The notes under the pieces: generated by a model
What the model saw: the letters and a program-made list of their open reading frames with translations, nothing else
Databases searched by the model: none
What the model was told of the DNA's origin: nothing
In this document: positions 6,208 through 55,021 of the stretch, piece after piece
Layout: every line of letters starts with the position of its first letter
How positions within the stretch are numbered: the stretch's first letter is position 1
DNA from: a methanogenic archaeon mixed culture ISO4-G1
Lineage (GTDB): Archaea > Thermoplasmatota > Thermoplasmata > Methanomassiliicoccales > Methanomethylophilaceae
NCBI GenBank assembly: GCA_001563305.1
Contig: CP013703.1
Span: forward strand, 496,001 to 560,000
Direction of reading: 5' to 3'
DNA length: 64,000 bases
Made by a program: the position numbers and the translations under genes

Positions 6208-7581
6208 TTATTCGGCCGGCAGTACGCCGTCGGGGGAGCCCTCATCGGCCATCTGGTCCGCGAACAGGAACAGTTCGTAGAACGGGATGGTAAGTATCCT
6301 CCGGGACTCATCAAATCCGTAGTTGTTCCTGGATACCTTGACCGCGTAATCGAATCCGTTGGTCTCCCTGAAGCATTTGAGGGAATTCATCGGGCCTCTG
6401 CCCTTCTTCACGTCGACGGGGATGGCGTGACCGTTCTTCCCGAGTATGAATTCGAATTCAGAATTCCTCCTGCCCTTCCAATAGAAAAGGTCCAGGCCTC
6501 TCGATTTCAGTTCCTGTGCGGCGAAATTCTCGTAGAATATTCCTGCCAGCATGTTCCTGCCGTCATCGCTTATGAATGACAGGGGATCGACGGCACTCTG
6601 ATACGAGAACATCCCGATATCCGCCATGTAGACCCTGAATGTGTTATCAGTCTCCGTAAGGGGGATGGTCACACGCCCTTCGATCTTCCGGCATACATTG
6701 ATCACACGGGCCTCTGTCAGCCAATCGATGGGTGACATCATCTCACGGCCCCTGGCACCTTTCTCCACGATGGACGGGCTGAAGTTCTTGGATTCCCTGT
6801 TCAGCAGGGTGTATATCTTGGAGAATATCGCCCTCGTTCTGATTATCGATTCGGGGCTGGCCTGATATAGATCCATATCTGCCAGATAGTTCCCGTATAG
6901 TTCCTTCAGGACCTTCCTGGATTCGTTGAAGTTATCGGTCTCCAGGAACGCGGAGACGGATTCGGGCATCCCGCCTATCAGAAGATACTCATAGAATATT
7001 CCCACGGCCATCTCGTGGAGCTCCTTTTCCATCGGTTCCTTCCTGCTGTAATGTTCAACTACCGAGTCGTACATCCTCCTGTTGCGGTTGTACAGGTATT
7101 CGTCGAATGACAGCGGAGTGACGGTGATCTCGTTTATCTTACCGACAGGGAATAGGAAACCGTTGTCGGATACGCCCCTCTTCTTCCTCTTTATCCTTAT
7201 CCTCACCATGGATCCGGTGACGATCATCGGTATCTCGGTATAATCCTGGCACATGTATTTCATCATCGTTATCACTGATGGGCATTCCTGTGCCTCGTCG
7301 ATTATCAGGAGGGTGGATTGATTCACGTCCTTGTTTTTTGCCAGAGATATGTATCTCAGTACATCGGAGGCTTTGGGATGCGATTCACAGTATCTGCAGA
7401 AATCCGGTTCTTCCTTACAGTCGATATAGATGTAGCTGTTTCCGTAGTAGCGCTCTGCGAAGATATCCTTCACAAGGTACGTCTTCCCCACTTGCCTTGC
7501 ACCCCATACCATCAGGGGTTTACGGCGGGGGTCATCCCGCCATTTGATGAGATCTTTGAGATATCTTCTTTCCATAATCAT
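6208..7581 (-). CDS. AAA-family ATPase with C-terminal DUF4143 domain (ATPase 1)
   Basis: The protein has 457 aa. An AAA_14-type P-loop domain carries Walker A GARQVGKT (residues 27-34) and Walker B LLIIDEAQEC. The C-terminal DUF4143 region belongs to a fold group related to PD-(D/E)xK nucleases and shows a weakened motif, EFEF...VDVKKGR. The family's cellular role is unknown. This is the first of four such genes in the window; those at 13797, 15807 and 17315 are paralogues of similar length. The gene stands alone, and its 5' side carries three iterated repeats (7591-7676), the most likely control region. Confidence 0.85.
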   Translation of the reverse strand: MIMERRYLKDLIKWRDDPRRKPLMVWGARQVGKTYLVKDIFAERYYGNSYIYIDCKEEPDFCRYCESHPKASDVLRYISLAKNKDVNQSTLLIIDEAQECPSVITMMKYMCQDYTEIPMIVTGSMVRIRIKRKKRGVSDNGFLFPVGKINEITVTPLSFDEYLYNRNRRMYDSVVEHYSRKEPMEKELHEMAVGIFYEYLLIGGMPESVSAFLETDNFNESRKVLKELYGNYLADMDLYQASPESIIRTRAIFSKIYTLLNRESKNFSPSIVEKGARGREMMSPIDWLTEARVINVCRKIEGRVTIPLTETDNTFRVYMADIGMFSYQSAVDPLSFISDDGRNMLAGIFYENFAAQELKSRGLDLFYWKGRRNSEFEFILGKNGHAIPVDVKKGRGPMNSLKCFRETNGFDYAVKVSRNNYGFDESRRILTIPFYELFLFADQMADEGSPDGVLPAE

Positions 7582-7590
7582 CCAGCAACG

Positions 7591-7676
7591 ATTAATTGTA
7601 CTATTTGTATATATTTTTAAGGAATTAATTGTACATTTTGCAGGTCTATTTCAAGGAATTAATTGTACATTTTGCA
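7591..7676. repeat. Three iterons upstream of ATPase 1, period 33-34 nt
   Basis: ATTAATTGTAC followed by a TTTG-containing tail occurs at 7591, 7624 and 7658. The last two copies are identical over 24 nt (7619-7642 and 7653-7676). They lie 10-95 nt upstream of the ATPase 1 start and are AT-rich. An operator array for ATPase 1 is likely; the rest of 7582-7816 shows only a TATA-like box near 7773. Confidence 0.75.
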
Positions 7677-7816
7677 TTAATTTTTTTTACGAAATATAGC
7701 ATTGGAATTGCCAATTCGTCCAACAGACGTCGGCGGCATCGCCCAGCGGACCTTGGAACTCCGTTGGAAACCTATTATAAATCAAAGCTATACTGGATGG
7801 TCAAGGGCGTGACACA

Positions 7817-8968
7817 TTGTCAAAGACGTACGAGCAGATCAACGAGAGGATCCGTTCAGGCAAAGCGGTAGTTTACACAGCCGAGGAGGTCATAGACCTC
7901 GTGAAGGAGAAGGGCGCGGAGCGCGCGGCCGAGGAGGTCGACGTCGTAACCACCGGTACCTTCGGGGCCATGTGCTCGTCCGGTGCCTTCGTCAACTTCG
8001 GGCATTCTTCACCGCCCATACGCATGACCGACATCAGGCTCAACGGGGTCGAGGCGTCGGGCGGCCTCGCCGCTGTCGATACGTACATCGGTGCCACATC
8101 CCTCACGGACGATCCCAAAGGGGGATACGGCGGAGCCCACGTCATCGAGGACCTCATCGCAGGAAAGAGGATCCACCTCCACGCCTGGGGCCCCGGTACG
8201 GACTGTTACGTCAGGAAGAACATCGACACGTACATCACGCTCGACGACGTCAACGATGCCTATCTCTACAATCCCCGCAACTGCTATCAGAACTATTCCA
8301 TCGCGACGAACACGTCCGACAGGACCATCTACACCTACATGGGGAAGCTCCTGCCGAAGATGAAGAACGCGACCTACAGCTCCGCGGGACAGCTGTCGCC
8401 GTTGCTGAACGACCCCCATCTGGATACCATCGGCATGGGTACGAGGATCTTCCTCGGAGGAGGGGAGGGCTACGTCGCATGGCCCGGTACCCAGTACAAG
8501 ACCGACGTGGAGGAGGTCAACGGCGTGCCGATAGGAGGCGCAAGGACACTGGCCCTCATCGGCGACATGAAGCAGATGGACGCCAAGTTCGTCCGCGGAC
8601 TGGACATCACCGGCTACGGCATATCCATGGCCGTGGGCGTCGGTGTCCCGATACCTATCCTCAACGCCGACATCATGAAGAGGTGCGCCATCTCCGACGA
8701 GGAGATCTTCGCGCAGATGGTCGACTACAGCCAGCCGGTCGAGAGGCCGCCGATGGCCAGATACAGCTACGCCCAGCTCAGGTCCGGAAGGATCCAGTAT
8801 GAGGGGAAGTCTATCAGGACCTCATCATTATCGTCGTATTCCGGCGCCAGGCAGATCGCCAACATCCTGAAGGACTGGATCGAGCATAAGGAGTTCGAGC
8901 TGAACAGGCCGGTAATGTCGTTCCCCAGGAACGTATCCCTCAAGAAACTGCAGGAGAGGGGGTGCTGA
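7817..8968 (+). CDS. Homocysteine biosynthesis protein, COG1900/DUF39 family
   Basis: The 383-aa protein resembles Methanosarcina MA1821, which with its ferredoxin partner converts aspartate semialdehyde and sulfide into homocysteine in anaerobes. A Cys in GAMCSSGAFVNFGH (residues ~51-64) lies in the conserved N-terminal block and is a candidate sulfur-carrying residue. A TTG start at 7817 follows a GGCGTGA ribosome-binding site. The gene overlaps functionally with the next two: only 1 nt separates it from the NIL-ferredoxin gene, and UPF0280 follows by overlap, reproducing the complete MA1821/MA1822/MA1715 set in one operon. Assignment rests on family recognition; the reaction is known from homologues. 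Confidence 0.88.
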   Translation: MSKTYEQINERIRSGKAVVYTAEEVIDLVKEKGAERAAEEVDVVTTGTFGAMCSSGAFVNFGHSSPPIRMTDIRLNGVEASGGLAAVDTYIGATSLTDDPKGGYGGAHVIEDLIAGKRIHLHAWGPGTDCYVRKNIDTYITLDDVNDAYLYNPRNCYQNYSIATNTSDRTIYTYMGKLLPKMKNATYSSAGQLSPLLNDPHLDTIGMGTRIFLGGGEGYVAWPGTQYKTDVEEVNGVPIGGARTLALIGDMKQMDAKFVRGLDITGYGISMAVGVGVPIPILNADIMKRCAISDEEIFAQMVDYSQPVERPPMARYSYAQLRSGRIQYEGKSIRTSSLSSYSGARQIANILKDWIEHKEFELNRPVMSFPRNVSLKKLQERGC

Positions 8969-8969
8969 G

Positions 8970-9374
8970 ATGGAGAAGAAGTTCAAGATCCTGTTCGAAG
9001 AGGGGAACGTCCAGAAGTCGGTCGCATACACCCTCGTGTCCGAGTTCGACCTGAAGCCCAATGTTCTGAAGGCCGTCATCGACGGAGACGGTTCAGGAGT
9101 CATGATCCTGTCGCTGGAAGGCGACGAGCAGAAGCTCGACAGGGCCGCGGAGAGGCTCAGGGAGGAGGGCTTCGACGTCACCGAGATGGACAAGCGCATC
9201 AGCCGCGACGAGGAGCTTTGCTTCAGCTGCGGGGCCTGCGTATCCATCTGCCCTGTCATGTGCTTCTCCTATGATCCGGAGACCTGGGAAGTCAACATCG
9301 ACAACAGCAAGTGCATCGCCTGCGGAGCATGTGTCAACTCATGTGCCAGGCATGCATTGAGCCTGCACCTATGA
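8970..9374 (+). CDS. NIL-domain/4Fe-4S ferredoxin for homocysteine synthesis
   Basis: The protein has 134 aa. An N-terminal NIL domain (residues ~1-70) is followed by two 4Fe-4S ferredoxin motifs, CFSCGACVSICPVMC and CIACGACVNSCAR. It matches the MA1822 type, which supplies electrons or sulfur to the COG1900 protein encoded 1 nt upstream. Its stop codon overlaps the start of the UPF0280 gene (ATGA), so translational coupling is likely. Confidence 0.9.
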   Translation: MEKKFKILFEEGNVQKSVAYTLVSEFDLKPNVLKAVIDGDGSGVMILSLEGDEQKLDRAAERLREEGFDVTEMDKRISRDEELCFSCGACVSICPVMCFSYDPETWEVNIDNSKCIACGACVNSCARHALSLHL

Positions 9375-10060
9375 GGACGCGTTTCCAGGTCAAGGAGACG
9401 GTCGTCACGATCGTCTGCGACGAGGAGTTCCTCAGGGTCGCGGAGGATGCTATATTCGAGGCGCGTTCCGTCATCGAATCGAAGATAGCGGACGATTCGT
9501 TCTTCGGCGTGACCTACGACCCGTATCCGGAATCCGGGGATGACAATCCGCTCATCCGGAGGATGTGCAGGGCTTCGGTGTTATCAAAAGTAGGCCCCAT
9601 GGCCGGCGTGGCCGGGGCGGTCGCCGTATACGCGGTGGAGAGGATGTCCGAGGCCGGGGCCAAGGAGGCCATCGTGGAGAACGGCGGCGACATTGCGTTC
9701 CTGTCCGACAGGAAGGTGCCCGTGGGACTGTTCGCGGACCATCCGGTGCTGAAGGATGTCGCATTCGAGATCTCCTCCGAGGGCATCACCGGGATATGCT
9801 CCTCATCCGCGAAGATAGGCCCCTCCGTCTCTCTCGGGTCCTCCAACGTCTGCACCGTGTTCTCCGACGACGTTATTCTGGCGGATTGCTGCGCCACCGC
9901 GTTGGGCAATCTCGTGAAGGATGAGGCATCCTTGCAGGAGGCCCTGGAGACCATCGGCTCCATAGACGAGGTCAAGGGATGTCTCGCTTGCATCGGCGAC
10001 AAGGTCGCCATGTACGGGGATGTGCCAGATATGGTCAGGACATCCCACATTGAATACTGA
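9371..10060 (+). CDS. UPF0280 family protein, sulfide assimilation (COG2122)
   Basis: I place the start at the ATG at 9371, which overlaps the preceding stop as ATGA and gives 229 aa beginning MRTRFQVKET; an upstream in-frame Met would cover the ferredoxin's Cys motif. The family member MA1715 of Methanosarcina acetivorans is needed for efficient sulfide use in homocysteine synthesis. A Gly-rich core (MAGVAGAVAVYAVE, then ENGGDIAF) is visible. Its presence here directly after the two catalytic components supports a role in the same pathway. The biochemical role is not settled. Confidence 0.85.
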   Translation: MRTRFQVKETVVTIVCDEEFLRVAEDAIFEARSVIESKIADDSFFGVTYDPYPESGDDNPLIRRMCRASVLSKVGPMAGVAGAVAVYAVERMSEAGAKEAIVENGGDIAFLSDRKVPVGLFADHPVLKDVAFEISSEGITGICSSSAKIGPSVSLGSSNVCTVFSDDVILADCCATALGNLVKDEASLQEALETIGSIDEVKGCLACIGDKVAMYGDVPDMVRTSHIEY

Positions 10061-10147
10061 TAGGAGACTATACAAGGCCCCTTGCATTTGAATTCTGACA
10101 GTGAACGATTTATCCTAACATCGTTTTTAGATATCCGAGGTTACAGC

Positions 10148-10696
10148 ATGTCAAAGATCGTCGCAGTGATTTCAAGTCCCCGTAAGGGAGCGAACTCAGA
10201 GACAATAGTGAACGCCATGGTGGAGGCGGCGAAGGGAAAAGGCCACGAGGTCAAGGTCTTCGACGTCGCATCCATGAAGGACAGGAGAGGATGTATCGCA
10301 TGTATGGGATGCAAGAAGGCCGGCAAATGCGTGCTGAAGGACGAGCTCACACCTGTCCTCGATGCGATCAGGGAGGCCGACGGACTGATCCTCTCGACAG
10401 CGGTCTACTTCGGACAGCCCACAGGACATTACAGGCTCCTCGAGGATAGGTTCTTCAGCTTCATCGACGGATCGTTCACACCCAACATCGCGGCCGGAAA
10501 GAAGCTCGCGGTCGTCGTCACCGCCGGAACCGCCGGAGCGGACGACCTCGCGGCACAGATCACCGGACGTATGGTGAGCTTCTTCAAGTTCGATCCCATC
10601 GGCAACATCACCATGACCGGTGGAAACCCTCCGCACGAAGCCGAGCAGAACCCTGACCTCCTGGCCAAGGCCGCCGAGATCGGAAGCAAGTTCTGA
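10148..10696 (+). CDS. Iron-sulfur flavoprotein / NADPH-dependent FMN reductase family
   Basis: The protein has 182 aa. The N-terminal flavodoxin-like phosphate-binding loop SSPRKGANS is followed by a compact cysteine motif, CIACMGCKKAGKC, spaced C-x2-C-x2-C-x5-C exactly as in archaeal iron-sulfur flavoproteins (Isf), which carry FMN and a 4Fe-4S cluster. The likely role is electron transfer or reduction of O2/peroxide from ferredoxin; the substrate is not deducible. The start at ATG 10148 removes an unlikely N-terminal extension. A paralogue lies at 42859-43500. Confidence 0.85.
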   Translation: MSKIVAVISSPRKGANSETIVNAMVEAAKGKGHEVKVFDVASMKDRRGCIACMGCKKAGKCVLKDELTPVLDAIREADGLILSTAVYFGQPTGHYRLLEDRFFSFIDGSFTPNIAAGKKLAVVVTAGTAGADDLAAQITGRMVSFFKFDPIGNITMTGGNPPHEAEQNPDLLAKAAEIGSKF

Positions 10697-10698
10697 AA

Positions 10699-11367
10699 TC
10701 AACGTTCCTTCCAGGTCTGCCAATAGATCGCGGTGCCCTGTCCCTCCCTCTGTTCGGGGGCGGGATAGGCGCCTTTGACCACGGTGGCGACCTGGGGGAA
10801 CCTCTTCTTCTTCGTTATCAGGAACTGCTCCAAGGGAGCGGGTTCCGTCCTTAGGTTGCGTCCATCCATCGATATGCTGGCACATTTACTGTACAAAGGT
10901 GTCCCAAGCATCTTCGATGTCTTTTCGGCGATCTGCTCGCCCCTCTCCGTCGAACCCATCGCCACGACGGCGGGGTTCACGCGTTCGATGATGTCGCACA
11001 GCGTTATCGAGTACACGTTGGAATCGTAGCATTCGGAACCCTTGTCCCTGACGTGATAGATGGATCCGACACCGCAGCCGAATATGGACCGATACAAAGG
11101 TTTCAGCTCCGGTCCCCCGAACATCACCGCGAAGGTGCGTCCCTCGTTCATGCCGCAGACGGCCGAGAGCACCTCCATGCTTATTCCCGAGATTTTCGGT
11201 CCGTCCGGACACCACAGGACCTCCAGCCACACCAGCGCGCCATCTGCGGTGGATTGATCCAGATCGTACCTGTCCAGCATCCCCGGGGGCAGTCTCACGT
11301 CATCCTTTCCGTCGCCCGAGGAACATGAAGAGCACGAGGAACAGGAATCGCCGCTGCAGCCTGACAT
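10699..11367 (-). CDS. ETF alpha/FixB N-domain-like protein with Cys-Ser-rich head
   Basis: The protein has 222 aa. The central and C-terminal parts resemble the N-terminal domain of electron-transfer flavoprotein alpha/FixB (alternating strands, VNPAVVAMGSTERGEQIAEK, then TVVKGAYPAPEQREG near the end). It lacks the second, FAD-binding domain of a full-length ETF alpha. The first ~20 residues are a Cys/Ser/Gly tract with five Cys, unusual for the family and possibly metal-binding. It converges with the Isf gene (2 nt apart). Moderate confidence in the family, low in any specific function. Confidence 0.6.
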   Translation of the reverse strand: MSGCSGDSCSSCSSCSSGDGKDDVRLPPGMLDRYDLDQSTADGALVWLEVLWCPDGPKISGISMEVLSAVCGMNEGRTFAVMFGGPELKPLYRSIFGCGVGSIYHVRDKGSECYDSNVYSITLCDIIERVNPAVVAMGSTERGEQIAEKTSKMLGTPLYSKCASISMDGRNLRTEPAPLEQFLITKKKRFPQVATVVKGAYPAPEQREGQGTAIYWQTWKER

Positions 11368-11398
11368 GGTACCGTCATCACATAGGGGTGATAAAAAA

Positions 11399-11475
11399 TG
11401 GAGCCACCTGAGGAATTCGAATCCCCGACCTGCTGATTACAAGTCAGCCGCACTACCGGGCTATGCAAAGGTGGC
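11399..11475 (-). tRNA. tRNA-Thr (anticodon TGT), CCA encoded
   Basis: The reverse strand folds into a cloverleaf: acceptor GCCACCT/AGGTGGC, discriminator T, encoded CCA, anticodon arm GCTGA-CTTGTAA-TCAGC, and T arm GGGGA-TTCGAAT-TCCTC. The TGT anticodon reads ACA (Thr). Confidence 0.95.
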
Positions 11476-11595
11476 TTTTGTGATTCGGAGTATAAGACTA
11501 TCGTTTATATTGATTTGCCTTTGGCGATGCCCGATGGCACAGCCAGTAGCCCATACTCGGGAGACACGCTGACTATATTTTCCCTGTTCGATACC

Positions 11596-11607
11596 TTTTT
11601 AATAAAC
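11596..11607 (+). promoter_or_regulatory. TATA box of the FKBP gene
   Basis: TTTTTAATAAAC lies about 50 nt before the ATG at 11653, predicting a leader of roughly 25-30 nt that contains the GGTGA ribosome-binding site at 11643-11647. Confidence 0.5.
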
Positions 11608-11652
11608 TATGGCATGCGCGCGACTAGTTAATTACCATTCACGGTGAATATC

Positions 11653-12351
11653 ATGGCAGACGCAAAGAAGCTCGTTCGCCTTACCTACAAGGCTTACCTC
11701 GCCGATGCAGACGAGAGACTCTACGACACTACAGACGAAGAGGCCGCGAAAGCAGCCAACATCTACAACGAGAAGATGACCTACGCCCCCATGGCGTACC
11801 TCTTCGGATCCAAGGCACTGTTCCCTGCCCTCGAGACAGCGATCGAGTCCGCCGAGATCGGAAAGGAGGTCACCATCACCATCCCCTGCGAGGACGCAGC
11901 CGGTGCAAGGAACCCCAAGCTCATCGAGCTCCACCCTATCAAGGAGTTCTACAAGCAGGAGATCAACCCCTACCCCGGAATGGCCGTTTCCCTCGGAAAC
12001 AGGCACGGAGTCGTCATGTCCGTCGCAGCCGGACGTGTCAAGGTCGATTTCAACAACCAGCTCGCCGGCCACGACCTGAAGTACGTCTTCACCGTCACCG
12101 AGGAGATCACCGACGACGTAGCCAAGGCAAAGGCGATCATCGAGCTCACCGCGGGAACATCCGAGGGATTCGAGGTCGCTGTCGAGGCCGACAAGGTCGT
12201 CGTCACCGAGGCCGAGACATGCAAGTTCGACCAGAACTGGGCAGTCGCAAAGTACAAGATCGTCGCTGACCTGAGGTCCGCCTTCGGTGTCCAGCGCGTC
12301 GAGTTCGTCCAGGTCTGGGATTCCGGCAAGAAGGAAGACAAGAAAGAGTGA
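11653..12351 (+). CDS. FKBP-type peptidyl-prolyl cis-trans isomerase, archaeal long form
   Basis: The protein has 232 aa. The FKBP/SlyD-like core with an insert-in-flap arrangement spans residues ~5-150, with YNEKMTYAPMAYLFG and the basin-forming GMAVSLGNRHG; an additional C-terminal domain of ~80 residues follows, as in archaeal FKBP26-type proteins. It should act as a cytoplasmic folding helper. The start at 11653 is preceded by GGTGA at 5 nt; the in-frame GTG at 11644 is part of that site. A strong hairpin terminates the transcript. Confidence 0.88.
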   Translation: MADAKKLVRLTYKAYLADADERLYDTTDEEAAKAANIYNEKMTYAPMAYLFGSKALFPALETAIESAEIGKEVTITIPCEDAAGARNPKLIELHPIKEFYKQEINPYPGMAVSLGNRHGVVMSVAAGRVKVDFNNQLAGHDLKYVFTVTEEITDDVAKAKAIIELTAGTSEGFEVAVEADKVVVTEAETCKFDQNWAVAKYKIVADLRSAFGVQRVEFVQVWDSGKKEDKKE

Positions 12352-12352
12352 T

Positions 12353-12372
12353 GTTGGGGTTTTCACCCCAAC
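12353..12372 (+). terminator. Hairpin terminator after the FKBP gene
   Basis: GTTGGGG/CCCCAAC (7 bp) with loop TTTTCA lies immediately after the stop codon. Confidence 0.65.
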
Positions 12373-12432
12373 TCCCCCAAAACTCTTTACCACCCTTTCG
12401 GGTAAGTTTCTAACAAGTTTGATCCATCCATC

Positions 12433-12579
12433 TCAGTCGAAGAACGCCAGAATGGTGTTCGCTTCGCTGTTCCTTTCGCGCGCAATGCGGCATCCGTACT
12501 TGTCGTACTTCATGTAGTTCTGTTCCCTGATCCTGCTTGCGGGGATCGGGGACAGTAGGGTCTGCTTGTAGTAACTCAT
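12433..12579 (-). CDS. Small hypothetical protein, 48 aa
   Basis: The ATG at 12579 has a good ribosome-binding site, AGGTGA, 6 nt upstream. The product begins MSYYKQTLLSPIPASR, has a basic middle (KYDKYGCRIARERN) and ends TILAFFD. It has no transmembrane segment. I do not recognise it. It is the only plausible gene in the 12373-12766 interval, and the start signal is the main argument for it. Confidence 0.55.
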   Translation of the reverse strand: MSYYKQTLLSPIPASRIREQNYMKYDKYGCRIARERNSEANTILAFFD

Positions 12580-12766
12580 GTTTTTCACCTGCAGTCTTGG
12601 GGGCTGCAATACTACTATCGCAGATGGAATATAATAACATCAAATTGTAATTGTTGTAATTATTGTTATTAATGTTACTAAAAGATAACAAAGATAACAA
12701 ACAACTGTTATTATACTCGACCGGTCGATCCTGTAACCATGGGAGAAACCCACAGGAAATGATAGA

Positions 12767-13441
12767 ATGGAAAGAACGATCACAGTGAAAGGATACGCGA
12801 AGATGAATATGCCAGCCGATATCACGTCTGTATCGGTGACCATATCCGGTAAGGAGAGCGATTTCGACAAGGCGATGGAGGCAATGATCGGGTGCACCGT
12901 GAAGATCAAGGACGCCATCGAGAAGGCCGGACTCGTCCGCAGCGAACTGAAGACATCCAACCTCTCCATAGTGCAGTCCTACCGTAAGAGGAAGATCGGT
13001 ACCGACAGGAATGGATACGATAAGTTCGAAGACGTTGAGGACGGTTTCTGCTACAAGCAGGACGTGAGCTTCGAGTTCCCAAACGACAACAGTAAGTTGA
13101 CGGACATCGTTCGCAACATCAAGGATACCGGGGTCACCCCGAAGATAGATTTCGGATTCCGCAGCAGCAGTTCAGAGACGGTCAAGAACGAACTGCTGGC
13201 ACAGTCGGCGAAGAACGCATTGGGAGAGGCCAAAGCGATAGTGGAGGCGGTGGGATCCAAGCTCGGTAAGCTCCTCAGTGTGGACAGGAGGGGAGGCTAC
13301 GATGACGACTACGTCTATAGGAGGAGGTCCATCGAATACGACGGTGATTGTTGCAAGTGTGCATCGCCATCTCTGGACATCGATCCCGACGACATTGCTG
13401 TCGGTCAGGAAGTGGTCATGACCTGGGAGATCGCAGATTGA
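12767..13441 (+). CDS. SIMPL (DUF541) domain protein
   Basis: The protein has 224 aa and opens with the family signature of an ITVKGYAKMNMPAD strand, continuing through the SIMPL fold (periplasmic BP26-like in bacteria) up to the C-terminal VVMTWEI strand. Residues ~175-200 form a charged, Tyr- and Cys-containing insertion (CCKC). No signal peptide is visible, so the protein is probably cytoplasmic here. Function in archaea is unknown. The downstream hairpin at 13455-13488 ends its transcript. Confidence 0.8.
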   Translation: MERTITVKGYAKMNMPADITSVSVTISGKESDFDKAMEAMIGCTVKIKDAIEKAGLVRSELKTSNLSIVQSYRKRKIGTDRNGYDKFEDVEDGFCYKQDVSFEFPNDNSKLTDIVRNIKDTGVTPKIDFGFRSSSSETVKNELLAQSAKNALGEAKAIVEAVGSKLGKLLSVDRRGGYDDDYVYRRRSIEYDGDCCKCASPSLDIDPDDIAVGQEVVMTWEIAD

Positions 13442-13454
13442 TTGTCGAAACAAC

Positions 13455-13536
13455 GGCGGACCCGTTTCCGGTTCCCGGCGGGTCCGCCAAATTATTGAAA
13501 AATGGCTCGTATACCACAATATACCGGCAGTATACG
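13455..13536. repeat. Shared stem-loop repeat, copy A (also terminator of the SIMPL gene)
   Basis: A 10-bp perfect stem GGCGGACCCG/CGGGTCCGCC (13455-13464/13479-13488) contains the family core GGTTCCCGGCGGGTCCGCC. It is followed by an AT-rich spacer and the dyad CGTATAC/GTATACG (13508-13514/13530-13536). Related copies lie at 15334, 17161 and 18838, always next to the ATPase genes. Confidence 0.7.
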
Positions 13537-13615
13537 GAATAACCTGAGTCAACCCTGCTCAAACTCTCTAATTCACATTGTATTGTATATTTAGGAACAG
13601 GCACAACCATCTTGA

Positions 13616-13659
13616 GTGAAAACTACCTTGTGAAAATGGTGAAAACTACCTAGTGAAAT
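13616..13659. repeat. Two direct repeats, period 23 nt
   Basis: GTGAAAACTACCT occurs at 13616 and 13639, each followed one base later by GTGAAA. The array lies between repeat copy A and the ATPase 2 iterons; its role is unknown. Confidence 0.6.
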
Positions 13660-13688
13660 GGATCCTGCACAGTTCGATTCAAGTATTG

Positions 13689-13748
13689 TCTGAATTCTAC
13701 GGCCGTATAATTACGACTAATCTGAATTCTACGGCCGTATAATTACGA
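13689..13748. repeat. Two 28-nt iterons upstream of ATPase 2, period 32 nt
   Basis: A 28-nt unit starting TCTGAATTCTACGGCCGTAT is perfectly repeated at 13689 and 13721, ending 48 nt before the GTG start of ATPase 2. The unit contains the palindromic core TACGGCCGTA. It is probably an operator array. Confidence 0.75.
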
Positions 13749-13796
13749 TTAACATGAATTACACACAATTAAATAACAACAGGACAATCCGTATCC

Positions 13797-15170
13797 GTGA
13801 AGCGCAAGATATACGATGAACTTCTTCGTTGGAAAGAGGACAAGCAGAATACCTGTCTCACGATACAAGGTCAGAGACAGGTAGGTAAGACATACATCAT
13901 CGAGAGATTTGCAGAGGACAACTATCAGCATTTCATCGAAATAGATTTCACAAGAATGCCCGAGATGGAGAAGGCTTTCGAAAGAGCAGTGGATGTCGAT
14001 TCGGTCATCAAAGAACTGTCCATAAGACTGAACGATGCCGTATTCGAACCGGGGAAGACCCTTATTTTCCTGGACGAGATCCAGGAGTGTCCTGAGGCGA
14101 GATCGTCATTGAAATGGTTTGCGAAGGACGGGAGGTACGACGTCATAGCATCGGGTTCCCTTCTGGGCGTGAGGAATACGAACGCCAAGAAAAAGAAGGA
14201 GGAGAATAAGAAACCGCTTTCACCGATGGGCTACGAGAGTGTCCTGACGATGAGGTCCATGGATTTCGAGGAATACCTTTGGGCGATCGGATTCAACACG
14301 GAGATACTGAGCGGCATCAAGAAGAAGATCGGTGCGATGGAGCCACTGGACGAATCCGAGCTGGAGGTCATGGCCTCGCATTTCCGCGACTATATGATAG
14401 TAGGGGGCATGCCCGCATCCGTCGAAGCCTTTGTTAGGACCAAACAGTATTCCGAATCGGGAAGGAAGATCGACATCATACTGGGGGATGTGATCAACGA
14501 TATCAATCGCTATAACGATCCGGTGAACGCCCTCAAGACGCAGAGGTGTTTCGAATCCATACCGGAACATCTGAGTTCCAACAACAAGAAGTTCCAATAC
14601 TCCCGTTTGGAGAAGGGTACGGGTTCGCGTGCTTCCGGTGAGAAATACTCCGAGAATCTGCTTTGGATAGAGGGCGCCGGATACGGGAACTTCTGCTACG
14701 GTCTCAATTCTCCCGAACGTCCGTTCAAACGCATAGAGGACCTGTTCAAGGTGTATCTATCGGATACGGGGATGTTGGTCAGGATGATGGGAACATCTGC
14801 GGCGATGGCCATCCATAACGACGATATCAGTTTCAATGCAGGAGCGGTGGCAGAGAATGAGATCGCAGAATGCCTTTCCAAGAGCGGGATAAGGCCGAGA
14901 TTCTATCGTAAGAATAGTGGAAAGAACCAGATGGAGATAGACTTCGTGATAGAATTGCTAGATGAATGCGTAGCGATCGAAGTCAAGTCTGGCAAGAAGA
15001 GGGAATCCCCATCGGTGGAGAAGGTCAACAAGGTATTCAACGTCGATAGAAGGATGAAGTTCGAGAATGGGAACATACTTAAGGACGAGGAGGGGATAGA
15101 GCACTATCCGTTGTTCGCCGCAGCATTCATAGATCTTCTGAAAAGGAGATATGACGGTCCTGCATTTTGA
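13797..15170 (+). CDS. AAA-family ATPase with C-terminal DUF4143 domain (ATPase 2)
   Basis: The protein has 457 aa from a GTG start. Walker A is GQRQVGKT (residues 25-32) and Walker B LIFLDEIQEC. The C-terminal part keeps a complete PD-(D/E)xK-like pattern, MEIDFVIELL...IEVKSGK, so a nuclease-like fold is preserved better than in ATPase 1. A basic stretch NAKKKKEENKK follows the sensor-like GSLLGV segment. It is flanked by shared repeat copies A (upstream) and B (downstream), and its own iterons sit directly upstream. The function of the family is not known. Confidence 0.85.
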   Translation: MKRKIYDELLRWKEDKQNTCLTIQGQRQVGKTYIIERFAEDNYQHFIEIDFTRMPEMEKAFERAVDVDSVIKELSIRLNDAVFEPGKTLIFLDEIQECPEARSSLKWFAKDGRYDVIASGSLLGVRNTNAKKKKEENKKPLSPMGYESVLTMRSMDFEEYLWAIGFNTEILSGIKKKIGAMEPLDESELEVMASHFRDYMIVGGMPASVEAFVRTKQYSESGRKIDIILGDVINDINRYNDPVNALKTQRCFESIPEHLSSNNKKFQYSRLEKGTGSRASGEKYSENLLWIEGAGYGNFCYGLNSPERPFKRIEDLFKVYLSDTGMLVRMMGTSAAMAIHNDDISFNAGAVAENEIAECLSKSGIRPRFYRKNSGKNQMEIDFVIELLDECVAIEVKSGKKRESPSVEKVNKVFNVDRRMKFENGNILKDEEGIEHYPLFAAAFIDLLKRRYDGPAF

Positions 15171-15333
15171 CGGACATTAAAAACTGACAACGCGATCGAT
15201 TCTATGATGATATGCTGATTGAGGATACGATTCAGATAGGTTCGGATAGGCCGTGATCAATCAACATCCAATCCCGGATAAGTTACCGAACTTATGCCCG
15301 TATACAGGGTATAAGTTACCACATCTTTTGACG

Positions 15334-15409
15334 TCTGGCTAATGTCTTAAGCGGTTCCCGGCGGGTCCGCTTCATTCTTAGAAAAAAAGTTAGTATACTG
15401 CAGTATACT
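15334..15409. repeat. Shared stem-loop repeat, copy B
   Basis: GTCTGGCTAATG (15334-15345) is followed by the stem-loop core GCGGTTCCCGGCGGGTCCGC (15351-15370), a spacer, and a perfect 18-nt palindrome AGTATACTGCAGTATACT (15392-15409). The interval 15171-15543 between ATPase 2 and a small gene holds nothing else I can name. Confidence 0.65.
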
Positions 15410-15543
15410 CTGATTATATCTCGAAAACCACCTTTGTCAGTATGAAACAAACGGCGGGTAACGATTATCGTTGAGACAATGCTATTTAGAAAGTACCGGA
15501 AGTCTATGATATGATAATAAAATTGTAGATAATTGTGGTATAT

Positions 15544-15681
15544 ATGACTGAGAAATCCGAACCTAGGTCTGTTCCAAAAGAGATTTCTCCGTATGGAGGA
15601 CTCGAAGATCTTACTGATGAACAGATCGAGAAGAATATCCGGGATTGTCCATACGTCATGGGAAAGCTCAAGGATTGCTGA
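15544..15681 (+). CDS. Small hypothetical protein, 45 aa
   Basis: An ATG reading frame encodes a hydrophilic product starting MTEKSEPRSVPKEISPYG and ending MGKLKDC, with two Cys. The ribosome-binding site is weak (TGTGGT). The amino-acid composition looks protein-like rather than random. It lies between ATPase 2 and ATPase 3 and is unrecognised; it may be a remnant. Confidence 0.4.
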   Translation: MTEKSEPRSVPKEISPYGGLEDLTDEQIEKNIRDCPYVMGKLKDC

Positions 15682-15806
15682 GGTGCGTATTGCACTTCAG
15701 CCAGTTTCGATCTTAGTTCTTTCGTCTTTTCCTGATGCCTTGGGCGAAGGTAAGGGTGCAGTAGACCTGTTACCACAAAGCTGGCACGGGAGATAGGGCA
15801 TACCCT

Positions 15807-16988
15807 TCACGCAATATCCATTCCACAGAGCCAGTCAATAACGTTGACGACATCGATCCCGTCGTAGGAACCGAGGCCGATGCGGTCCTCGGTCAGAACG
15901 ATCTTCCGGTAATTATCCGGGACATTCTCCAATGGCGTCAGCTCCCTTTTCTTCGTTTGTTCGGCATGCATGGTCTGGGTCACCTGATAGTAGATAATCT
16001 TGTCACCCTTCATGGCGGTGAAATCTATCTCGGAATCGTTGTAGCTCCCTACTGATACCTTGTAGCCTCTCCTGAGCAGTTCGAAATACACGGCATTCTC
16101 CAAGGGTTTGCTGAGATCCGCCAGGCTGCCGGGGTTCAGTAACATGTATCTCATCCCCAGGTCGGTAGCGTAGTATTTCCCCTTGGATTTCAGGTATTTC
16201 TTCCCGACGATGTCATATCTGTCGACATGATAGAACAGATGAGCGGAGACGATCTCGTTCATGAACCTGTAGACATCATCCTTAGGTATGTTCAGTGCCT
16301 CGGATATCCTGTCCGGATTGGTAACGTTGCCTATGTTGGAGTACAGGAACCTGCATATGGCGTCCAGTCTTCTTGTGCTGCCGGATATGCGGGACATTAT
16401 ATCCTTCATCACCACGGTGTTGAACACCCCCTCCGATTGATACATGCATACGGATTCCCCCCTGTCCGGATCTATCATCGGCAATCCGCCGAATTTCAGA
16501 AAGTCTTCCAATCTTTTCTCCTTCTCGCCCGGATGCAGTTCCATATACTCCTTGAACGAGAGGGGCAGGATCTCGATCTCGATGTATCTTCCGGACAGTT
16601 TGGTGGACAATTCGGAGGAGAGCATCTTGGAATTGGAACCGGTGATGTAGACATCGCAGTCCCCTCTTGCGACCAGCATAGCCACCAGCCTTTCCCATCC
16701 GTCCACATCCTGTATCTCGTCTATCAGGATGTAATGCATCCCTTTCCTTTCGAGTACCGGTTTTATCTGTTCATGGAGCCAGTTTATATTCGGTTCATCG
16801 ACCAGGAGATCCAGATTGATGTGACAGATGTTTTCCTCGTCTGTGTCCATCGAACGAAGACGGCCTACGAATTGGTTGAGCACAGTGGTCTTCCCAGTGC
16901 GTCTCATCCCCGTTAGGACCTTGACCGTACTGGGCATGTCCTTGGACGATGTCAAGACAGCCAGATAATCTTCTCTGATGATCTCCAT
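15807..16988 (-). CDS. AAA-family ATPase with DUF4143-type C-terminus (ATPase 3)
   Basis: The protein has 393 aa, shorter than its three paralogues. Walker A is GMRRTGKT (residues 27-34), Walker B ILIDEIQDV, and a GSNSKML sensor-like segment follows. A small winged-helix-like stretch lies at residues ~200-250. The C-terminal nuclease-like motif is degenerate: SEIDFTAMKG is followed by YYQVTQT where paralogues have EVK, so catalysis there is unlikely. Directly upstream are two imperfect 24-nt repeats (17017-17080). The role is unknown. Confidence 0.83.
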   Translation of the reverse strand: MEIIREDYLAVLTSSKDMPSTVKVLTGMRRTGKTTVLNQFVGRLRSMDTDEENICHINLDLLVDEPNINWLHEQIKPVLERKGMHYILIDEIQDVDGWERLVAMLVARGDCDVYITGSNSKMLSSELSTKLSGRYIEIEILPLSFKEYMELHPGEKEKRLEDFLKFGGLPMIDPDRGESVCMYQSEGVFNTVVMKDIMSRISGSTRRLDAICRFLYSNIGNVTNPDRISEALNIPKDDVYRFMNEIVSAHLFYHVDRYDIVGKKYLKSKGKYYATDLGMRYMLLNPGSLADLSKPLENAVYFELLRRGYKVSVGSYNDSEIDFTAMKGDKIIYYQVTQTMHAEQTKKRELTPLENVPDNYRKIVLTEDRIGLGSYDGIDVVNVIDWLCGMDIA

Positions 16989-17016
16989 GATCGTACATGT
17001 CTCTCTGCGTATTAAA

Positions 17017-17080
17017 AAATTCTGATTTTTCAGAATTAATTAGGTATTCAACAAATAAATTCTATAATTCCAGAAATAAT
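17017..17080. repeat. Two imperfect 24-nt repeats upstream of ATPase 3, period 40 nt
   Basis: AAATTCT...CAGAATTAAT at 17017-17040 and AAATTCT...CAGAAATAAT at 17057-17080 match at 18 of 24 positions. The first copy is also a dyad, AATTCTGA/TCAGAATT. They lie 29-92 nt upstream of the ATPase 3 start. Confidence 0.6.
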
Positions 17081-17160
17081 CGGATAACTGCCAACAAGTG
17101 TATGCAGGATCTTAAACAAAGGATATGTGATAACAATTGCCCGTTTCGTTTTGGAAGATA

Positions 17161-17250
17161 ATGTACTGGATTGTCCCCAAAAATGGGGTATAATGTACCT
17201 TCGATTTTTCTGTCTGGCTAATGCTATAAGCGGTTCCCGGCGGGTCCGCC
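17161..17250. repeat. Shared stem-loop repeat, copy C (long form)
   Basis: A 90-nt unit, nearly identical to copy D over its first ~80 nt: GTAC...CCCCaaaaatGGGG...GTAC, then GTCTGGCTAATGCTATAAGC, then the GGTTCCCGGCGGGTCCGCC core. It lacks the distal GTATAC dyad seen in A, B and D. It occupies the 17081-17314 gap between ATPase 3 and ATPase 4. Confidence 0.7.
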
Positions 17251-17314
17251 AATATTGTTAGCCAGCATCGATTTTTTCAAGTGCATCAAATATTGGTATT
17301 CGATTCACCAGGGA

Positions 17315-18667
17315 TTATACGCGACCTATCAATCCGGTCATATAAATCGGAATATACAGTATCTCGTTTTCTTCTTTCAGGTTCCTGGGGGATATCATTA
17401 TACTGTGGTGGATCTCCTTTTTATGTTTCGATATGAACGCATCAAGAGATGCATGGGATGAGGTGGAAGAGGATTTGACCTCGACGGGGCAGATCTTCTT
17501 ACCCGAAGGGATCAAGAAATCCACCTCATATCTGTGTTTGGAGTCTTTTTTGGGGAACGTGTGGTAGAATAGTTTGTATCCTGCTGCTACCAGACTCTGT
17601 GCTACCGCGTTTTCGTATACATAACCTAGGTTGGCCGGAAGTCTCCCCCTCACCAATGCCGTATAGATGACATTATCTGAAAACTCCCTATCATAGAAGC
17701 ACAGTGTGACGAATAATCCTGTGTCCTCAAGGAACATCTTGAATTTCTCCATTTCCTGTGTCATCGGAAGACCGACCTTTGGATCATCCACGTGCATACT
17801 TTGCTGTACCGTCTGGGAATCCACCATCTCCGAGATGCGTTTTATCTCTCTCCTGATGGTTTTACCTTTGACCCTGAAACGCAGACTTTGGCGCGAGAGT
17901 TCAGAGGGAATCGACATGAAATACATGCCGAGGGAACCGCTCGGATCAATCTTACGGAAATCATCGAGGTAGAGGTTGAGGATATCCCTTTTTATCTTGT
18001 CAATCTCCTGGTAGCTCCTGCCTTCTGTGAACAATTTCACCGCCTGTGGCATTCCGCCGACAGCGAGGTATTCGTTGTAACGCAGCATCATCGTATGATG
18101 TACAGCACCGGATAGCGGTTTCCTGTCAATCAGGTCCTGTTCTAGCAACCTGTAGCTGTGGTTTCCGCAGGCCCAGAGGAACTCTTCGAAATCCAGCGGG
18201 TGAAGTTTCATCTTCTCCTCCTCACTGGGTATTACGATGTCCTTCACGTTCTTTCTGATCGAGATCAGGGAGCCTGTTTCTATGTAATCATATCTGCCGT
18301 CATTGACTAGTGCCTTGATAGATTCCCTTGCCCTGGGGAACCTCTGGACCTCGTCGAATATTATCGCGGTATCGCGTTCTTTGAATTCCACTCCGGTCAG
18401 GACTTGAAGTCTTCTGAGAAGGCGCGTAATGTCGCTCAAGTCATCGAATAGGGCATTGATATCCTTGTTCTCTTTCGAGAAATCAATTAGTACGTATGAG
18501 TGATACTCCTTACGTGCGAATTCTTCGACAAGTGTGGATTTCCCTACACGTCTCGCACCTTCCACAAGCATCGCTGTGGCTCCGTTGGACCTCTCCTTCC
18601 ATTCCTTGAGGACAGTGTAAGCCTTTCTCTCGAACACCCGTGGCGAATCTGATGAGTGGTCAGTCAT
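17315..18667 (-). CDS. AAA-family ATPase with C-terminal DUF4143 domain (ATPase 4)
   Basis: I start the protein at the Met at 18667 (450 aa, MTDHSSDSPRVFE), because an upstream in-frame Met would put the repeat array inside the coding region. Walker A is GARRVGKS (residues 37-44) and Walker B TAIIFDEVQRF. The C-terminus keeps a PD-(D/E)xK-like pattern, RYEVDFLIPSG...CPVEVKSS. It is a paralogue of ATPases 1 and 2. Shared repeat copies C and D flank it, and three private iterons with an exact 33-nt period precede it. Confidence 0.83.
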   Translation of the reverse strand: MTDHSSDSPRVFERKAYTVLKEWKERSNGATAMLVEGARRVGKSTLVEEFARKEYHSYVLIDFSKENKDINALFDDLSDITRLLRRLQVLTGVEFKERDTAIIFDEVQRFPRARESIKALVNDGRYDYIETGSLISIRKNVKDIVIPSEEEKMKLHPLDFEEFLWACGNHSYRLLEQDLIDRKPLSGAVHHTMMLRYNEYLAVGGMPQAVKLFTEGRSYQEIDKIKRDILNLYLDDFRKIDPSGSLGMYFMSIPSELSRQSLRFRVKGKTIRREIKRISEMVDSQTVQQSMHVDDPKVGLPMTQEMEKFKMFLEDTGLFVTLCFYDREFSDNVIYTALVRGRLPANLGYVYENAVAQSLVAAGYKLFYHTFPKKDSKHRYEVDFLIPSGKKICPVEVKSSSTSSHASLDAFISKHKKEIHHSIMISPRNLKEENEILYIPIYMTGLIGRV

Positions 18668-18690
18668 AATTCCATTTAGTGTATAGATGG

Positions 18691-18773
18691 TATTTGTCTG
18701 TTTTCCCAAAATTTTTAAATCGATATTTGTCAAGTTTCCCTGAATTTTAAAAGATTGAAATGTCGTTTTTCCC
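18691..18773. repeat. Three iterons upstream of ATPase 4, exact 33-nt period
   Basis: TATTTGTCTGTTTTCCC (18691-18707), TATTTGTCAAGTTTCCC (18724-18740) and a third copy ending GTCGTTTTTCCC at 18773. The CCC ends are spaced exactly 33 nt apart. The array starts 24 nt upstream of the chosen start codon. The remaining 18668-19062 interval holds repeat copy D and AT-rich sequence. Confidence 0.7.
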
Positions 18774-18837
18774 ATTAATTAGAATTGTTTTCAAGGAATA
18801 TCAACTTGCACCAATCCCTATGGTTGTGCCCTAAATA

Positions 18838-18975
18838 ATGTACGGGATTATCCCCCAAAATGGGGTATAATGTACCTTCGATTTTTCTGTCTGGCTAATG
18901 CTATAAGCGGTTCCCGCGGACCCGCTCATTTCATCGAAAACAGGCTGTATATCGCAGCATACCGGCAGTATACAG
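18838..18975. repeat. Shared stem-loop repeat, copy D
   Basis: It carries the same upstream GTAC...CCCCCaaaatGGGG...GTAC and GTCTGGCTAATGCTATAAGC blocks as copy C. The GC core then appears rearranged (GGTTCCCGCGGACCCGCT, partly inverted relative to C). The distal dyad CTGTATA/TATACAG (18945-18951/18969-18975) shares ATACCGGCAGTATAC with copy A. Confidence 0.7.
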
Positions 18976-19078
18976 GAATCATTCTATTGCATCTCCTCTC
19001 TGGTTATTTTGATTAATAGCATAAATATGCGAGTAATCAAATTTTTATGAATTATTTACATAGGTAATGTGATACTTT

Positions 19079-19747
19079 TTAGTTGATGTTTTGTCTATAA
19101 AGAAAAGACATCAACTCCGTCATCCCCCAAACATGGTCGGTCAGACCCAATTTCATCGCAGGCGTGACATCCACGCGTTTGCCACCGTTCTCCTTCTTCC
19201 GGATCGAAATCGAAGAGTGCGGAAGACAGAGGTTGTAGTAGCCTTTGAACAGATCCAGACCTGCCTGCACGGCCTCCCTGGATTTACCGAAGGTCACCGT
19301 TCTGCGCCTGATCCTCGCATTGAACAGCCTGATCGTCAGGTTCTGCCTCTCGATTGCCGACGTGTTGAGAAGGTGTTCCGGTACGTCGCCGAAGGCGACA
19401 TACCGTCTCACCTTCTCCAATTTCTTGCCCAGGCGGGTCTTCTCCACTACACCGTAGTTGAAGTCAGAATTGGGCTCCAAATGGCTTCCCGGGCGTCCGC
19501 GTCCGTTGTTGTACACGCGATAGCTGTACCTCTTGAAAAGAGTGGTCAGATATGGTCTGTAGCCGTCGGTTACGAAATACGGCATGTGGTTGCGCCTAAG
19601 CTTGTCTAATTCGGTGTTGACGATGCGTTCGCAGACGGCCTTTCCTCTGCCGTCGGCGACAATACCCAGCAGATACTTTTCGGTGGCACAGAAGGAGGTC
19701 CAGATCCAGTCCCCGTCCTCTTTGAAATGGTCCCCCACGAAAATCAT
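19079..19747 (-). CDS. IS1-type transposase catalytic part (InsB-like)
   Basis: The protein has 222 aa. The DDE pattern of IS1 is visible: an N-terminal Asp in VGDHFKEDGDW, YFVTDGYRPYL in the middle, and TSAIERQNLTIRLFNARIRR followed by VTFGKS carrying the Glu. The frame is joined to the upstream HTH frame at CTAAAAAAAACATGA: an A8 run suits a -1 slip, as in IS1 InsAB', and the HTH stop and InsB ATG also overlap (ATGA). It appears intact. Confidence 0.85.
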   Translation of the reverse strand: MIFVGDHFKEDGDWIWTSFCATEKYLLGIVADGRGKAVCERIVNTELDKLRRNHMPYFVTDGYRPYLTTLFKRYSYRVYNNGRGRPGSHLEPNSDFNYGVVEKTRLGKKLEKVRRYVAFGDVPEHLLNTSAIERQNLTIRLFNARIRRRTVTFGKSREAVQAGLDLFKGYYNLCLPHSSISIRKKENGGKRVDVTPAMKLGLTDHVWGMTELMSFLYRQNIN

Positions 19748-20168
19748 GTTTTTTTTAGAGTATATAAAAGCTCATCGAATTGGAGGCTCTCGGGGGCCAC
19801 ACCCTTCGATTCCAGACTGGCCGAGACCTTAGCAACATGCTCTCCGCCGCGTTTCGTACGCTTCTGCACGGTCCTGACCGTGCAGCCGACGATGTCGGCC
19901 GTCCTCCGGACGCCAACCCCGTTGGCCTGACAGGCCATGATCAGATTGTGCTCCTCCTTGGTCAGGTGGGTATCTCATAAGCTGTGCCAGTACGGTCGTT
20001 GAACACGCGTCCGCAGGTCTTACATTTGTATTTGCGCACGGTCCCTGACTTCGTCTGATAGGTCCCGTTCGCTATGATGTTCTGCTCCCCGAGTCTGCCG
20101 AAATTCCTGCATTCCTCGTTCGGGCACGAGATCTCCAAGAACTTCTGTTTAGGCCCTCTTTCTCCCAT
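19744..20168 (-). pseudogene. IS1 InsA-type zinc-finger/HTH region, frameshifted
   Basis: The first frame (20168-19962) encodes MGERGPKQKFLEISCPNEEC and a second Cys pair, CKTCGRVFND, an InsA-like zinc ribbon, and stops after TAYEIPT. The helix-turn-helix continuation (LTKEEHNLIMACQANGVGVR) lies in the -1 frame down to 19744. No slippery heptamer is evident at the break near 19962-19975, so this is probably an inactivating indel or an assembly error. Confidence 0.7.
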
Positions 20169-20303
20169 CTTGATCATCATAAACGATATGGGAGTATAAA
20201 TATAAAATATCAACTAAAAAGTATCACATTACCATTTACATAAATCCACGATTAATAAAAGATTTATACATACAATGTCCTGTTAACAGAAGTTAATATC
20301 GAG

Positions 20304-54935: not shown

Positions 54936-55021
54936 ATCATTTCTTTTTCACCGTTCTCCTTTCGGTATTTCTTTCAGAATTAAAAGAAATAAAATAAATA
55001 AAAGAAATATGATGTCATTTT

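Follow-up and report, generated by a model that had tools for sequence, protein, structure and literature searches.

Private repeat arrays at the promoters of DUF4143 ATPases (PDC-S01) in archaea and bacteria: candidate operators probably read by the ATPases themselves

PDC-S01 and PDC-S27 are candidate defense systems that were found by genetic embedding. The former is, according to a 2026 survey (PMC12988326), the fourth most common prokaryotic defense system, a single-gene candidate in which an ATPase is fused to a PD-(D/E)XK domain, and its anti-phage activity, like that of most PDCs, is described as not yet validated. Here we analyze four genes of this kind, encoding ATPases with a DUF4143 domain and numbered 1 to 4, together with the tandem repeats found directly upstream of them. 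The genes lie in a stretch of 64,000 nucleotides, hereafter the window, from the methanogenic archaeon mixed culture ISO4-G1 (Methanomethylophilaceae; contig CP013703.1, positions 496,001 to 560,000). They and their relatives belong to the same families as the PDC candidates and share the fusion of ATPase and PD-(D/E)XK domain; what is added here is the upstream array, as the available part of the survey mentions no repeats, operator or regulation (PMC12988326). Neither was any description of upstream repeats found in the open PMC literature on DUF4143, COG1373, COG1672, SSO1545 and PDC-S01, a search whose scope did not include subscription papers, preprints and supplements.

In the Rep-iteron and DnaA/Orc1-Cdc6 systems, spaced direct repeats are bound by a protein of AAA+ or winged-helix type, often close to the gene that encodes it. 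The likeness includes structure, in that the model of a protein of the subfamily termed A1 below matches DNA-bound Cdc6/Orc1, but nothing here indicates a replicon or an origin, and the genes are single chromosomal ones, in many paralogs per genome, each with a sequence of its own. Self-regulation at the promoter and private operators among paralogs are also familiar from toxin-antitoxin operators and from the C-proteins of restriction-modification systems. Both features are summarized in PMC12255303. Unlike these, the present genes have no second gene, and a toxin-antitoxin system was rejected as a candidate because no adjacent partner is conserved: 79 neighbor proteins fall into 65 families, the largest with 3 members, and these largest families are one neighbor counted several times. 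The repressor RptR, which acts on an E. coli defense island, is a 9-kDa helical dimer apart from the effector; it has one widely conserved site, TAGCTA, in 9-bp repeats, two of which are needed for full repression (PMC12255303). In the genes studied here, effector and presumed regulator would instead be one protein, and the site differs from gene to gene. The closest solved folds are those of SSO1545 (2FNA) and PABY2304 (2QEN), with Z of 15-17 over 268-274 residues, for which neither a function nor a binding site was found in the searched papers. Their family, PF01637, is a separate one in Pfam and has 27-29 nt arrays of its own. A CRISPR-like array was rejected as well, as several arrays are near-perfect head-to-tail repeats that have no variable spacers and a private sequence (cas genes were not sought).

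All four ATPases of the window have repeats just upstream, as a first-pass annotation of the letters had claimed, and each set exceeds chance. ATPase 1 (6208-7581, minus strand, 457 aa), with AAA_14 and DUF4143 domains, is assigned to PDC-S01 and its subfamily A2 by Pfam, PADLOC (E=1.5e-112) and tree position. Its array (7591-7685, minus strand; TGCAAAATGTACAATTAATTCCTT in minus-strand reading) has the three units noted before, at 7591, 7624 and 7658, i.e. spacings of 33 and 34 nt, and the score was reached in 0 of 100 dinucleotide shuffles. ATPase 2 (13797-15170, plus strand, GTG start, 457 aa, PDC-S01, subfamily A2) follows an array at 13689-13760 on the same strand, TCTGAATTCTACGGCCGTATAATTACGACTAA; the pair noticed before, 32 nt apart, measures as two 32-nt units (13689 and 13721), 97% identical to each other, with a partial third. 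ATPase 3 (15807-16988, minus strand, 393 aa) belongs to clade B of PDC-S01, and its array (17014-17080, minus strand) is indeed a looser pair, namely two 27-nt units 40 nt apart (17054-17080 and 17014-17040), reached in 0 of 1000 shuffles at period 40 and in 1 of 200 over any period. A near-identical relative of this protein in a related species (L057) has an array that is likewise significant at 40. Lastly, ATPase 4 (17315-18667, minus strand, PDC-S01, subfamily A2) has three units of exactly 33 nt each, starting with GGGAAA, at 18675-18773 on the minus strand (0 of 1000 shuffles at period 33). Its start is likely the inner ATG at 18667 and not the listed start at 18775, because the open reading frame (ORF) that extends to 18775 passes through the array. 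The unit sequences are unrelated between these genes, again as noted before, and all array sequences in the genome differ.

The source genome (1.59 Mb, a single contig) has 13 DUF4143 matches, two of which are C-terminal fragments. Outside the window, 23-nt arrays precede L001 and L002, three near-perfect 32-nt units precede L003, and two perfect 29-nt units, 32 nt apart, precede L004, while no clear array was found upstream of L006, L009 and L010. DUF4143 genes occur in all 31 searched genomes of the genus, with 3 to 20 per genome. The loci analyzed came from the genus, from the class and from public genomes, the scan of which yielded mostly bacteria. Gene starts were anchored by hidden Markov models (HMMs), and the 200 nt upstream were scored for ungapped self-matches at periods of 18-70 against 200 dinucleotide shuffles. 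Significant arrays were found at 166 out of 263 distinct DUF4143 proteins, archaeal and bacterial, so that orthologs do carry the repeats. Nor are repeats equally common elsewhere, since only 16 out of 356 intergenic upstream regions of other genes, none closer than 800 nt to an ATPase start, were significant; high-scoring controls closer to ATPases were mostly divergent neighbors sharing the ATPase array. An array generally consists of 2-5 units and ends at the core promoter. The units of subfamily A1 are mostly non-palindromic, and some of those of A2 and PF01637 are palindromic.

The period follows the protein subfamily. Among the 166 significant arrays it was 23-24 nt (or 46, 48 or 69) in 78 and 32-34 nt (or 64-66) in 86, with odd periods of 53 and 56 in the remaining two, and a single branch of the protein tree (support 1.0) splits the 78 from the 86 with zero errors. 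The two sides are subfamilies A1 (23-24 nt) and A2 (32-34 nt), the latter including ATPases 1, 2 and 4, and at 55% protein identity the two period classes comprise 29 and 50 clusters, respectively. In clade B, the period was 39-40 nt in all four significant genes of the genus, to which ATPase 3 (40) is additional, and the PF01637 ATPases had 27-29 nt in nine of ten significant arrays. Averaged over all genes, archaeal A1 members scored 27.5 at period 23 against a background of 3.8, and A2 members scored 17.1 at 33 and 14.5 at 32; genes below the significance cut gave the same peaks (23 in A1, 32/33 in A2). A later test set, classified by subfamily HMMs, was made up of 40 further regions and 30 loci in 20 genomes, most of them bacterial (Bacteroidales, Actinomycetota, Treponema, Fibrobacter, Anaerolineaceae, Clostridia and others), and it is not fully independent, because its genomes were reached through earlier loci and a few genes (e.g. 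L404 and L406) repeat earlier ones. In this set, the seven significant A1 arrays had periods of 23 (five), 46 and 22, and of the 19 significant A2 arrays, from a group that takes in a few viral contigs, 17 were at 32 or 33 and one at 66. The period of about 33 nt in the first-pass annotation thus holds for ATPases 1, 2 and 4, but not for ATPase 3 or the sister subfamilies, and about three helical turns is not a rule, as 23, 28, 33 and 40 nt all occur and only the 33-nt class is near a whole number of turns.

Within a subfamily the unit sequence is private, yet it is inherited with the protein. A unit was shared by 71% (A1) and 82% (A2) of the pairs at 60-70% protein identity and by 93% and 89%, respectively, at 70-80%, as against 5% and 7% at 40-45%; pairs less than 50% identical mostly have no unit in common. 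In 64 out of 66 pairs at 60-92% identity, the arrays matched better than flanks of equal length, and the similarity of the flanking DNA was at the shuffled level. Copies outside the own array, with up to 3 mismatches, were absent from the genome for the units of ATPase 2 and L003, the only two searched, and a regulon sharing one site was rejected for these two, as their units have no other genomic site. In 881 kb of loci, units matched outside their own arrays once, and reversed controls twice. Since the unit wording is unique to the gene while the spacing (23, 28, 33 or 40 nt) is fixed by the subfamily, these sequences suggest that each ATPase copy reads its own DNA address. Five members from Lachnospiraceae and Treponema (L201, L210, L220, L230 and L232) have a nearly identical palindromic unit, TTGCAAAAGTCATATGACTTTTGC, and because of this a transfer of gene plus operator between phyla is suggested.

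The conserved position at the gene start was borne out too, as the arrays lie at the core promoter, and in the genus they end a median of 33-34 nt before the start codon. A good TATA box was present in 68 archaeal cases. Its median position is 1.5 nt past the end of the array and 31 nt ahead of the start codon, measured at the first base of the box, and it lies 3' of the array in 87% of these cases. In bacteria, a -35 or -10 element is often found inside or beside a unit, e.g. TTGCAA and TATAAT in L194, L201, L210 and L231. The candidate site thereby abuts or overlaps the gene's own core promoter, as would an autoregulated operator. Such a position is consistent with an operator and speaks against an element that is transcribed. 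Since archaea and bacteria both have their arrays there, the most likely role is self-regulation. Of the two roles offered in the first-pass annotation, self-regulation or DNA marking, there was no evidence for the latter.

All four window proteins match PF13173 (AAA_14) and PF13635 (DUF4143) above the curated cut-off, and PDC-S01 of PADLOC over most of their length with E-values of 1e-98 to 1e-122 (1e-58 to 1e-122 when the A1 protein L001 is included); the PF01637 relatives match PDC-S27. The Walker A motif is found in 261 out of 262 proteins. AlphaFold models of ATPase 2 and L001 had a mean predicted local distance difference test (pLDDT) of 93, and that of ATPase 2 consists of an ATPase (residues 1-240), a winged helix (242-321) and a PD-(D/E)XK-like domain (346-448), with E380, D382, E395 and K397 forming the ExD...ExK motif. 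Among PDB structures, the best matches were 2QEN (Z 16.7) and 2FNA (15.3), both of PF01637, followed by CED-4 (14.2), NLRs (13), including plant ones, and Orc (about 10); Avs5 and Orc1/Cdc6 were also among the matches. With an ATPase core, a C-terminal winged helix and these fold matches, the modeled proteins qualify as members of the STAND/ORC clade of AAA+ ATPases. The ExD..ExK motif occurs in 146 out of 153 A2 and 88 out of 109 A1 proteins and, with the modeled domain, points to a PD-(D/E)XK fold. Clade B, including ATPase 3, carries Q where the motif has E, and a small residue where it has K (QVxQT instead of EVKSG), and ATPase 3 itself reads EIDF...YYQVTQT; in this clade, ATPase and array are kept despite the degenerate nuclease motif. 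In A1, the eight sequence windows that best predict a shared unit at a given overall identity all lie within residues 240-285, which are the recognition helix and wing of the model. That these determine the unit specificity in A1 is suggestive only.

Arrays and genes appear to move together at this locus. Twice in tandem, the sequence GTGAAAACTACCTTGTGAAAATG forms an orphan 23-nt array at 13616-13658 (plus strand; 2 matches as against 0.03 expected). The region 13456-13658 of the window is 86% identical to the related species of L057, which at the site of ATPase 2 has an A1 ATPase with a 23-nt array. Judged by this comparison, the orphan array is the remnant of an A1 ATPase, i.e. the footprint of a cassette swap. 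In the genome G009, the syntenic site is occupied by an ATPase and an array that both differ from those of the window. The homology that ATPase 2 shares with L313 extends from 13690 to 15174, i.e. from the array start to just past the stop codon. ATPases 2, 3 and 4 are furthermore bounded by four copies of a border repeat (13469-18941), which in this genome occurs only at this locus. The copies, all on the plus strand, are situated at 13469-13502 (CGGTTCCCGGCGGGTCCGC, the 3' half of the terminator hairpin of the gene at 12767-13441), at 15279-15385 after ATPase 2, at 17158-17264 between ATPases 3 and 4, and at 18835-18941 after ATPase 4. The repeat is half a terminator hairpin and is preceded in three copies by a hairpin of variable sequence. 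It resembles a tRNA 3' end, yet a tRNA-derived attachment site was rejected in view of its hairpin nature and its restriction to the locus.

Taken together, it is probable that each ATPase binds its own array and regulates its own promoter, most likely by repression. ATPase, winged helix, promoter array and, in most members, PD-(D/E)XK domain would then form a single-gene unit, in which the winged helix recognizes the private unit and several subunits sit next to one another along the array. The shape of the subunit would set the spacing, namely 23-24 nt in A1, 32-34 in A2, 39-40 in B and 27-29 in the PF01637 family. The bound complex would most likely silence its own gene, because the array ends at the TATA box in archaea and covers or abuts the -35/-10 elements in bacteria, until an activating signal or loss of the protein releases it. 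The ATPase itself is the simplest reader, because the spacing is fixed by the subfamily and the base preference changes with the ATPase. We infer the ATPase as binder, the repression and an anti-virus role from the arrays, their period, the covariation, the promoter position and the predicted fold. The earlier proposal is supported in part. Its core, mutually orthogonal ATPases recognizing their own DNA, has strong but indirect support from the period by subfamily, from unit similarity that follows that of the proteins and does not extend to the flanks, from the absence of further genomic copies of the two units searched, from the lack of a conserved neighbor and from the predicted winged helix. 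A number of points weigh against this interpretation. It draws on sequences and models, from which binding and regulation are predicted. The recognition-helix peak in A1 (0.638) barely exceeds the 95% permutation limit (0.631), and the A2 signal, which peaks in the same area, is not significant. Clade-B-like genes outside the genus peak at 33 and not at 39-40. A significant array is lacking in roughly one in three of the genes sampled; in subfamily A0 (about 410 aa) no member from the genus shows one, and in bacteria the picture is mixed. The mostly non-palindromic units of A1 do not agree with a simple dimer bound to a dyad. In archaea, most arrays precede TATA, and from there a bound protein could act as activator as well as repressor. 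Finally, HMM anchoring of the starts was applied to the ATPases and not to the controls, a difference that cannot, however, produce the period classes.

The main rival is a sensor or safety catch: the ATPase would be held inactive or primed on the array, as on an anchor, and loss or alteration of the array, e.g. by an invader, would free or trigger the nuclease; the location at the promoter would then be of lesser weight. STAND proteins are oligomerizing switches, CED-4, NLRs and Avs5 are among the structural matches, the nuclease motif is present in most A1 and A2 proteins, PDC-S01 is a defense candidate, and the five tandem units seen in some arrays exceed the needs of simple repression. The tight fit to TATA and to -35/-10 is nevertheless what an operator predicts, and clade B retains its arrays with a degenerate nuclease motif, so that we regard the sensor as unlikely, if less so than the remaining alternatives. 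Archaeal genomes hold many transcription factors, and with binding by the ATPase a prediction, the arrays could instead be read by another, unlinked regulator or a chromatin protein. However, dozens of unrelated units have a common period within each ATPase subfamily, across archaea and bacteria, so that an unlinked regulator would need to fit the ATPase clade as well as every single gene, and no conserved neighbor presents itself; we give this reading a small chance.

Still less probable is a mobile element with the ATPase as cargo, of which the arrays would be the ends or attachment sites. Array and gene do behave as a cassette, as seen from the homology limits of ATPase 2 and L313, the other ATPase and array in G009 and the orphan units left in the window, but shared selection on array plus gene would give the same limits, the promoter-locked position and the subfamily period are left unexplained, and no unit copies are found at the far end (the one match against two for reversed controls in 881 kb); a transposon- or integron-like element end was rejected on the lack of an array copy at the other end. 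A function at the RNA level, with the repeats acting in the mRNA leader, seems a shade more improbable again. Palindromic A2 and PF01637 units could form hairpins, while the A1 units are mostly non-palindromic, and most arrays are not in that message because TATA lies 3' of the array, 31 nt before the start codon; a leader element was accordingly dismissed. AT-rich upstream regions do yield short self-matches, and yet the likelihood that the arrays are a chance or low-complexity artifact of AT-rich intergenic DNA is practically nil, this origin being ruled out by the dinucleotide-preserving shuffles, the 356 control upstreams and the exact period classes.

For the mechanism of PDC-S01, a cognate DNA site that can be predicted from sequence for each protein would be a first experimental handle. 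Hundreds of natural protein-DNA pairs with fixed geometry and varying specificity would also serve the learning of a recognition code and the design of orthogonal regulators. A far-reaching extension, speculative and rather unlikely as a whole, is an address code of the entire superfamily, in which PDC-S01 and PDC-S27 ATPases polymerize on their private arrays with a spacing equal to that of the subunits in a filament or ring. The array would then be both operator and nuclease safety catch, and the paralogs would be orthogonal immune switches, swapped as array-plus-gene cassettes.

Some further observations concern related genes. Among the PF01637 (PDC-S27) ATPases, those at L086:7107, L070:5584, L111, L115 and L123 have their own 27-29 nt arrays, and the units are palindromic in several PF01637 arrays, e.g. 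TTACAACCAATTCTGGTTGTAA. A2-type ATPases are present on viral contigs (L331-L337), where the upstream mean peaks at 33 nt, and viruses or proviruses may thus carry array plus gene. Upstream repeats were also seen at AlbA_2/Schlafen-like genes, with a 32-nt spacing on the minus strand of L092 (start near 6837) and as AAGAAATAA repeats at window position 55021, and the phenomenon perhaps extends to such further families. On the plus strand of L080, a gene starting near 5288, whose protein has the N-terminus MHRFDYSEILGDIP and is outside these ATPase families, is preceded by a significant repeat with 53-nt spacing (24 nt, 22 matching). An insertion sequence-like element at 19063-20233 of the window has a transposase-like ORF and inverted ends of 37 nt, and the same end sequence precedes the truncated DUF4143 gene L007 at genome position 486-487 kb.

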